In this document: positions 13,816-48,174 of the stretch, one piece after another
Layout: every line of letters begins with the position of its first letter
Numbering within the stretch: the stretch's first letter is position 1
Assembly (NCBI GenBank): GCA_946415705.1
Contig: CAMKTN010000009.1
Span: 1-64,000, forward strand
Length of the DNA stretch: 64,000 nucleotides
From: an uncultured Prevotellaceae bacterium
GTDB taxonomy: Bacteria > Bacteroidota > Bacteroidia > Bacteroidales > Bacteroidaceae
Reading direction: 5' to 3'
Position numbers and translations under genes: made by a program
The notes under the pieces: model-generated
The model's input: the letters and a program-made list of their open reading frames with translations, nothing else
Told to the model about the DNA's origin: nothing
The model's database searches: none

Positions 13816-14069
13816 TTGCTCAATTGTTTATAAGGGTTAATAATAGGTCTAACTTATGGAGAACTCCTTGCAAATCTATGAGCATAAGAAAAGCGCAGGC
13901 ATTCACCATACGCTGCTCAGGTTTAGGACGACCTATTAGGAACTATGGAAAGCCTGCGCTTAGGCGCAAGCCTCATGTTCCTAATTATTGCTCGTCACTT
14001 ACCGAGGTCCTAATTCGAGCAGCGATTGAGCAAATAAAATGTCGTGCGAGACCTCTTTCGAAGGTATGC
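13816..14069 (-). ncRNA. Structured 5' leader of unknown class upstream of the 13815-7822 gene run
   Basis: Nested stems 14017-14024/13911-13918, 14007-14013/13923-13929, 13977-13984/13936-13943, 13964-13971/13952-13959 plus small hairpin 14003-14006/13991-13994; alternative 13952-13961/13891-13900. Confidence 0.6.
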
Positions 14070-14075
14070 ACGGGG

Positions 14076-14083
14076 CAAATATA
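14076..14083 (-). promoter_or_regulatory. -7 box TATATTTG
   Basis: Matches Bacteroidetes TAnnTTTG on the minus strand just upstream of the structured leader. Confidence 0.5.
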
Positions 14084-14325: not shown

Positions 14326-14643
14326 TTATACGGCTATGCCGGTTTTCATGACATCATCGTATAGCGGAGACCAGCGGTCATCTGCCATTAGAACGGGTTC
14401 TATGAGGAAACTGACCTGACGTACATCATGCCAAAGCTTCTTGGAGATTTCAAACTTTTGGTCACCATACGAGGGCACAATGACTGCGACATCGATATCA
14501 CTGTCTGGATTGGCATAGCCCTTGCTATATGAGCCAAACATCATCACTTTCGGCTCTTTCTCAAAGCGTGAACTGATGATGGATTTGTAATGTCGAACAA
14601 GGTCTAAGGCCTCGTCGCGGCTGAGAGTTCGTCTTTCATCCAT
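14326..14643 (-). CDS. MNT-type minimal nucleotidyltransferase (antitoxin of HEPN/MNT pair)
   Basis: MMFGSYSKGYANPDSDIDVAVIV, GS-X9-DxD motif. Confidence 0.85.
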   Translation of the reverse strand: MDERRTLSRDEALDLVRHYKSIISSRFEKEPKVMMFGSYSKGYANPDSDIDVAVIVPSYGDQKFEISKKLWHDVRQVSFLIEPVLMADDRWSPLYDDVMKTGIAV

Positions 14644-15011
14644 TGTAGTAGTTGTTTGGTATCGTCAATGATTGAGCGACATGACTGTTTCGTCAGTTTT
14701 CGTGAAAGGGCTTCTTTATCCTCTGGATAACGTGCCTCAATATTAAAATTGGTAATGGTGTCCAGGAAATCTTTCTGCTCTTCACTCATTTTCTCATAGA
14801 TTCCACAACCCGTTGCCAGTCGCATATGGTTGTGGGTGTATGGCGGGTCGTCACCGCGTGTTCCACACCAATAGGCTTTTAATGTTTTCTCGATAGTTTG
14901 ATGACACATAAAGGCAACATAAAGCCATCTTCCTGTGGAGTACATGGCCTCAGCTGTATCCAAATCATAGTCCGCAATATCAAGCCAATATGCTACTTTA
15001 TCGACCGGCAT
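14604..15011 (-). CDS. HEPN-domain protein (toxin of HEPN/MNT pair)
   Basis: WLDIADYDLDTAEAMYSTGRWLYVAFMCHQTIEKTLKAYW..PPYTHNHMRLA; overlaps the MNT gene by 40 bp. Confidence 0.85.
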   Translation of the reverse strand: MPVDKVAYWLDIADYDLDTAEAMYSTGRWLYVAFMCHQTIEKTLKAYWCGTRGDDPPYTHNHMRLATGCGIYEKMSEEQKDFLDTITNFNIEARYPEDKEALSRKLTKQSCRSIIDDTKQLLQWMKDELSAATRP

Positions 15012-47751: not shown

Positions 47752-48174
47752 GGAAACAGTGGGGCAGCTTGCCGCTGGCCGCCGCCATTCGTGGTGTGCG
47801 ACGAGAGGAAAGTCCGGGCAACACAGGGTACTCCGCTACCTAACGGGTAGAAGTCCGCGAGGATTAGCACGTGCAGAAGAAAACAACCGCCTCCCATTGA
47901 GGTAAGGGTGAGAAGGTGGGGCAAGAGCCCACCAGATGTATGGCGACATGCATGCTGTGCACACCGGAGGTTGAAAGTTCGCGTAAACCGGCGAAGCGCC
48001 GACTGCGGTCATCCGTGACCGTAAGGGCGAGAGAGGGCGACCCGTCCGAGCCGGAGGGTAGAACGATGGAGGCGTGACGAGAGCCACGTCCTAGATCAAT
48101 GGCAGGCACTGTGGCCGCAGCCCCCAACCCCTGCTGCCACAGCACAGAACCCGGCTTACCGCTCCACTGTTTCC
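47752..48174 (+). ncRNA. rnpB: RNase P RNA (bacterial class A)
   Basis: GAGGAAAGTCCGGGC; AGAACCCGGCTTA; terminal pairing GGAAACAGTGG/CCACTGTTTCC. Confidence 0.97.

Follow-up and report, generated by a model that had tools for sequence, protein, structure and literature searches.

A family of leader RNAs with two competing, covariation-supported folds ahead of exported-protein genes in Bacteroidales

The leader and its locus

The window analyzed here, a stretch of 64,000 nucleotides from an uncultured Prevotellaceae bacterium, carries on its minus strand a leader of about 250 bases that precedes genes for surface proteins. Two alternative sets of pairs can be drawn within it. State I consists of helices P1 (P1a and P1b), P2, and P3, with segment A paired to segment B at the apex of P3, while state II consists of three nested helices, P0, P7, and B:C. 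The features needed to follow both are listed below.

14107-14103, minus: TTTTG, a potential -33 element
14083-14076, minus: Bacteroidetes -7 box TATATTTG, located by string; the promoter is conserved in homologues
14071-13816, minus: leader RNA, about 250 bases, preceding surface-protein genes
14071-14044, minus: 5' hairpin GTGCATACCTTCGAAAGAGGTCTCGCAC, at the predicted transcript start
14034-14025, minus: P0 5' strand TTTGCTCAAT, near invariant, partner of GAGCAA in state II
14024-14007, minus: P1 5' strand, in the order P1a CGCTGCTCG, conserved GAA, P1b TTAGGAC
14024-14017 with 13918-13911, minus: P1a, CGCTGCTC paired with GAGCAGCG
14013-14007 with 13929-13923, minus: P1b, TTAGGAC paired with GTCCTAA
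14006-13987, minus: P2 hairpin region of state I, with CTCG...CGAG at 14006-13991
13993-13988, minus: GAGCAA, within the P2 hairpin; P0 3' strand of state II
13984-13977 with 13943-13936, minus: P3 basal helix, TTAGGAAC paired with GTTCCTAA
13971-13964, minus: segment A GCTTGCGC, the P3 apical 5' strand; its partner GCGCAGGC lies inside 13959-13944
13959-13944, minus: segment B GCGCAGGCTTTCCATA, partner of A (state I) or of C (state II)
13934-13919, minus: P7, AGGT-nGTCCTAA-ACCT, a GGY/RCC hairpin that encloses the P1b 3' strand (13929-13923) as its loop
13918-13911, minus: P1a 3' strand GAGCAGCG, part of the covariation of helix 1
13910-13886, minus: segment C TATGGTGAATGCCTGCGC (13910-13893) and pyrimidine run TTTTCTT, proposed 3' half of a terminator
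13900-13891, minus: GCCTGCGCTT, followed by TTCTT
13874-13855, minus: segment D region TTTGCAAGGAGTTCTCCATA, competing with B for C; proposed antiterminator
13854-13813, minus: start-codon region, containing the 3' strand of the P5 hairpin, ATTGAGCAAATG, and the start codon
13815-12838, minus: first downstream gene, a 325-aa exported protein with signal-peptide-like MKQLFLTMVVMMMAVMCYGQ
12824-8976, minus: second gene, 1,282 aa, signal-peptide-like start, DUF7619 and dockerin type I

The predicted minimum free energy of the window leader was −87.1 kcal/mol (z = −5.2), and none of 200 shuffled sequences folded equally well. The P0 5' strand TTTGCTCAAT is additionally complementary to ATTGAGCAAAT, which overlaps the start codon. 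No Pfam match was found for the 325-aa product of the first gene, which is separated from the second by 13 nt. Just upstream of the leader, at 14326-15011 on the minus strand, are two small adjacent open reading frames (ORFs) which we take, by eye only, to encode an MNT nucleotidyltransferase (GSYSKGYANPDSDIDVAVI) and a HEPN protein. They could represent a HEPN-MNT toxin-antitoxin-like pair, an inference made without any profile.

Family members and their shared plan

The first additional copies came from BLAST within the organism's own genome, which contains a second full copy on one contig (C29) and a partial match on another (C15); in both, the P1 stems have diverged in sequence and retained complementarity. 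Searching the genus returned matches in 29 of 101 genomes. An alignment of 22 copies, with two-sided changes in 24 of the 39 predicted pairs, provided a covariance model (R1). Applied to the organism's own genome, R1 recovered three strong copies, one of them the window leader. Across the GTDB family, copies were present in 106 of 301 genomes and 14 of 30 genera, with up to 6 per genome. Elsewhere in the order Bacteroidales the distribution was patchy (19 of 296 genomes), and R1 found zero copies among 299 other genomes of the phylum sample. The E-values of R1 are rough, and many of the sampled genomes are metagenome assemblies. An exact 27-mer from segment C also occurs in 18 contigs from Prevotella, Prevotellaceae, and Bacteroidaceae assemblies, nearly all of them metagenome assembled and many from ruminants.

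Several individual loci depart from the typical arrangement. The third own-genome copy (L010, contig C15, ~2510-2200, minus strand) lies ahead of a gene with in-frame stops at codon 7 and later, apparently a broken exported-protein gene, and the pairing of the RNA is kept. A 34-nt match on contig C11 was rejected as a copy because the core is missing; at that locus (L011, ~1240-1100, minus strand) a lipoprotein-like gene shares with the window gene about 34 nt before the ATG as well as the start of the signal peptide, which may reflect module shuffling or a leader that lacks the switch. In L002, L004, L022, L027, L029, L031, L032, and L052, an additional hairpin inserted between GAGCAA and P3 produces a four-way junction. 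Divergent, mostly AT-rich copies from other families of the order (L177 to L184 and L195; one family has several in each genome) retain P1b and GGY/RCC and differ in P0 and the 3' parts; they may form a sister subfamily.

Well-matched copies share a common order of -7 box, 5' hairpin, three-way junction (four-way in some), pyrimidine run, and ORF start. The anatomy statistics leave out the 15 weakest copies, which belong to other families of the order. Of 146 homologues, 124 carry the promoter motif TAnnTTTG 25 to 75 nt ahead of the core (median, 39 nt), compared to an expectation of about 6%. Between box and core, 99% of 125 homologues have a segment that folds below −3 kcal/mol (median z, −2.8), and the pyrimidine run is present in 121 of 146 copies. 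An ORF starts on the same strand within 130 nt in 132 of 143 copies, versus 29% at random, with the ATG at a median distance of about 61 nt and after the pyrimidine run. This fixed geometry of promoter and ORF favors an RNA leader over a DNA element.

The genes that follow the leader encode mainly exported proteins. Starts resembling a signal peptide or an N-terminal transmembrane segment were found in 119 of 133 downstream ORFs, compared to 21% of 34 control ORFs from the same loci, as judged by a simple hydrophobicity rule and not by a trained signal-peptide predictor. When 104 downstream proteins were scanned, 15 matched BspA-type leucine-rich repeats and 7 matched Big_2 domains, and most belonged to no widely shared family. 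Exceptions in the regulon include an EcoRI-type methylase and an AIPR protein.

No Rfam model matched the window leader, or its copies in 20 homologous loci, at gathering or relaxed thresholds. Matches above the gathering score were limited to a bacterial RNase P class A RNA elsewhere in the window (47756-48174, plus strand), the only Rfam match there, and a separate cobalamin riboswitch in locus L112. A search of the literature found no description of this RNA, with the caveat that it could overlap one of the thousands of unnamed candidates from human microbiomes in the supplement of Fremin and Bhatt (PMC8040213). Aside from such an overlap, the leader is a member of an RNA family, from Bacteroidales of gut and rumen, that had not been catalogued before.

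A preliminary description of the sequence had proposed a promoter (the -7 box) just upstream, secreted-protein genes downstream, and no recognizable relation to a known riboswitch class, and all three claims held. Its proposed transcript start near 14069 is supported solely by conservation of the promoter. It had also named a transposon end as an outcome that would refute it; with its fixed orientation and promoter, the element behaves otherwise.

Two competing sets of pairings

State I is supported across the family. Among 102 distinct sequences, 97.3% of cells in P1a, P1b, P2, and P3 with its apical A:B helix were paired, versus 74.0% after shuffling, and two-sided changes affected 31 of 39 pairs (954 changes, compared to 272 in shuffled data). 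Helix 1 was paired in 99.5% of cells, with two-sided change in 14 of 16 pairs, and all 7 pairs of helix 3 showed such change. P2 is nearly invariant and therefore weakly tested, and TTTGCTC competes for its GAG strand. Because the fold outperforms shuffled sequences and homologues preserve the helices through compensatory change, these helices are not attributable to chance.

State II combines TTTGCTC/GAGCAA (P0), GGY/RCC (P7), and B:C. Its cells were 96.2% paired, compared to 22 to 49% in slid controls, and two-sided change was seen in 14 of 19 pairs versus 5.0 ± 1.3 in shuffles (109 two-sided cells versus 12.5). The shuffle control leaves relatedness among copies in place, a weakness that affects the slid and negative swap controls less. 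Fitting of the alignment to state I favors that state and not state II. In an all-against-all screen of column pairs for covariation, the first 21 ranks were state I pairs, and later ranks with high complementarity included P7 (251-261), B:C (230-282 and 208-297), and P0 (3-128). Covarying variants of P0 include TAGCTC/GAGCTA, TTAACTC/GAGTTAA, and TTGTTC/GAACAA, and those of P7 include AGGT/ACCT, AGGC/GCCT, TGGC/GCCA, and AGGA/TCCT.

Swap tests compared matched partners with exchanged ones in 103 non-redundant copies. Matched partners bound better in A:B (z = −14.6), B:C (z = −8.8), C:D (z = −5.5), and P5, the hairpin before the start codon (z = −9.6). The same tests on these copies gave no signal for A:C, B:D, or C with the 3' side of P5. 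Segment B therefore has two partners (A and C), as does segment C (B and D). In the window, B:C joins GCGCAGGCTTTCCATA to TATGGTGAATGCCTGCGC through 16 pairs (−22.3 kcal/mol) followed by TTTTCTT, and C:D is worth −16.5 kcal/mol; many of the more divergent copies form C:D only weakly. Textbook terminators lack the long, interrupted loop that B:C encloses, and a terminator scan of the window did not list B:C because the scan permits loops of only 3 to 8 nt. In a nested model, state I has a stability advantage of about 13 kcal/mol, and this holds even for a sequence truncated at the U-run.

Covariation in about 100 relatives supports two folds that compete with each other, a signature of RNA gene switches, without functional data. 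Geometry alone does not fully exclude that P0 or P7 could coexist with P1 as pseudoknots.

On these points the preliminary description was largely right as to position and pairing. Every string it named is present on the minus strand where it had placed it, the three-way junction held, and its mutually exclusive alternative helix held but extends beyond the 10 bp it gave to 16 pairs. The strings of its P2 (CTCG-CGAG) are present, yet this is the weakest helix, with 3 nearly invariant consensus pairs. Covariation among homologues, whose absence it had offered as a refutation, is strong and in its favor. The label "riboswitch" remains unproven in the strict sense of a small-molecule aptamer, as conservation extends to very few of the unpaired bases.

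Interpretation and relation to known systems

Both sets of pairs, and the position of the RNA ahead of ORFs, are shown by sequence comparison. The best reading, which is likely and has no experimental evidence behind it, is that of a two-state leader RNA that acts in cis, represents a new family, and controls genes for exported and surface proteins in Bacteroidales. Termination of transcription by state II, the role of C:D as antiterminator, and a signal that shifts the balance are all inferred. Transcription would start just after the -7 box. In state I, P1, P2, and P3 would form and A would hold B, leaving C free for D and allowing RNA polymerase to read through. In state II, the 5' TTTGCTC would take GAGCAA, GGY/RCC would form P7, and the 16-bp B:C helix followed by the U-rich run would terminate transcription. 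P5, which adjoins the start codon and shares sequence with D, would compete with C:D, and translation may also be affected through P5 just before the ATG. Given the advantage of about 13 kcal/mol for state I, state II would need kinetics or a partner.

The nature of the trigger divides two accounts, neither of which we consider more likely than not. One is a metabolite riboswitch, in which the P1/P2/P3 junction binds a small molecule that chooses the fold; ligand binding is undemonstrated. A second messenger is one possibility, given the surface-protein targets and the several copies per genome. The leader meets the criteria of a 5' position on the mRNA strand at a fixed place, a phylogenetically supported structure, and mutually exclusive expression-platform structures, the last by covariation only and not by function. 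The three-way junction with its expression platform in 5' leaders, the occurrence of up to 6 copies per genome, and the invariant AA of GAA in the P1 internal loop also fit. Against it, the targets are surface proteins and not metabolic genes, and conservation at ≥90% falls on 21 positions that are paired in state II alone, compared to 8 paired in state I alone. If G285 and the U-run are set aside, just four positions, A8, U14, A28, and A29 (alignment columns), combine conservation with a lack of pairing in either state. Most metabolite aptamers are unlike such sparse unpaired conservation. A protein, RNA, or physical trigger is therefore about as likely as a metabolite. In this second account, which likewise falls short of an even chance, a protein, a trans-acting RNA, temperature, or transcription speed acts on the leader, and the invariant state II strands are a recognized or kinetically critical sequence. 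The concentration of conservation in those strands supports it, as does the strong thermodynamic preference for state I, which requires something to act for state II. The sole factor tested, an obvious candidate, is a UpxY-like NusG paralogue, and its presence is not associated with that of the RNA: there was no co-occurrence, and carriers G113, G139, G206, G240, and G323 have a single NusG match.

Other explanations fare less well. A small RNA derived from the 5' untranslated region, with B:C as its terminator, the free leader acting in trans, and some read-through, would account for the dedicated promoter, 5' hairpin, and pyrimidine run, but it is unlikely, as the constrained distance to the ORF start, the P5 pairing beside the start codon, and the different exported proteins behind copies in one genome point to cis action, and the sequences of P1 and P3 vary freely. 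A single static fold, with P0 and P7 as pseudoknots and B:C as a tertiary helix in a stability element or ribozyme, is also improbable. P0 and P7 can be drawn as pseudoknots with P1, and their strands hold most of the conserved bases; however, pairing of B with A rules out pairing with C, C must likewise choose between B and D, each of these pairings is supported, and the state II pairs are mutually nested. A leader-peptide attenuator gains no clear support. An ATG within TATGG is present in 114 of 146 copies, but the frame at the U-run is mixed, and pairing with CCATA accounts for this ATG. An origin as a transposon end, a MITE, or some other DNA element is all but excluded. Several copies per genome, a patchy distribution, and varied neighboring genes would suit such an element, but orientation relative to the ORF is fixed, as are promoter and U-run, and compensatory change occurs in two alternative folds. 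Position and orientation independent of genes, the mark of a transposon end or MITE, was not observed (a same-strand ORF lies within 130 nt in 132 of 143 copies). Searches of viral, phage, and plasmid collections gave no match to the element.

The two-state leader resembles several known systems in part. Orphan riboswitch candidates such as the three-stem aspC motif (PMC11109978) are likewise structured 5' leaders with a three-stem junction and few highly conserved nucleotides; the Bacteroidales leader differs in having a second fold supported by covariation, in its exported-protein genes, and in its Bacteroidales hosts. Attenuators of the trp type use 1:2, 2:3, 3:4 strand logic, and they share a chain of two-partner strands with one combination followed by a U-run. 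In the Bacteroidales leader, in contrast, the 2:3-like pair (B:C) precedes the U-run, and no leader peptide in a conserved frame was found among 146 copies. Comparative genomics has described other structured RNAs of Bacteroidetes, the Bacteroidales-1, Bacteroides-1, Bacteroid-trp, and Flavo-1 motifs (PMC2864571), but their Rfam models do not match the leader or its copies in 20 tested loci. Antitermination of the UpxY/LoaP type acts at leader RNAs of surface-polysaccharide or antibiotic operons, with surface structures as the targets of UpxY in Bacteroides. The two systems would have in common that a leader controls elongation, as inferred for the Bacteroidales RNA, although here the number of NusG paralogues does not follow the presence of the RNA.

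A bolder reading is that the leader is a new class of bistable RNA switch, perhaps a new riboswitch class or one that senses an unknown global signal. It would coordinate surface and secreted proteins, which form a large and rapidly changing set, throughout Bacteroidales, and it would link termination with start-codon access. This reading is compatible with the evidence, at somewhat less than even odds.

Bacteroidales are a dominant group in gut and rumen for which few regulatory RNAs are known. This leader family is common, occurs in several copies per genome, and precedes exported proteins that include BspA-type leucine-rich repeat proteins. Because both folds are supported by covariation, the family lends itself readily to in vivo studies of RNA switching, and identifying the trigger would reveal a signal that sets surface composition.
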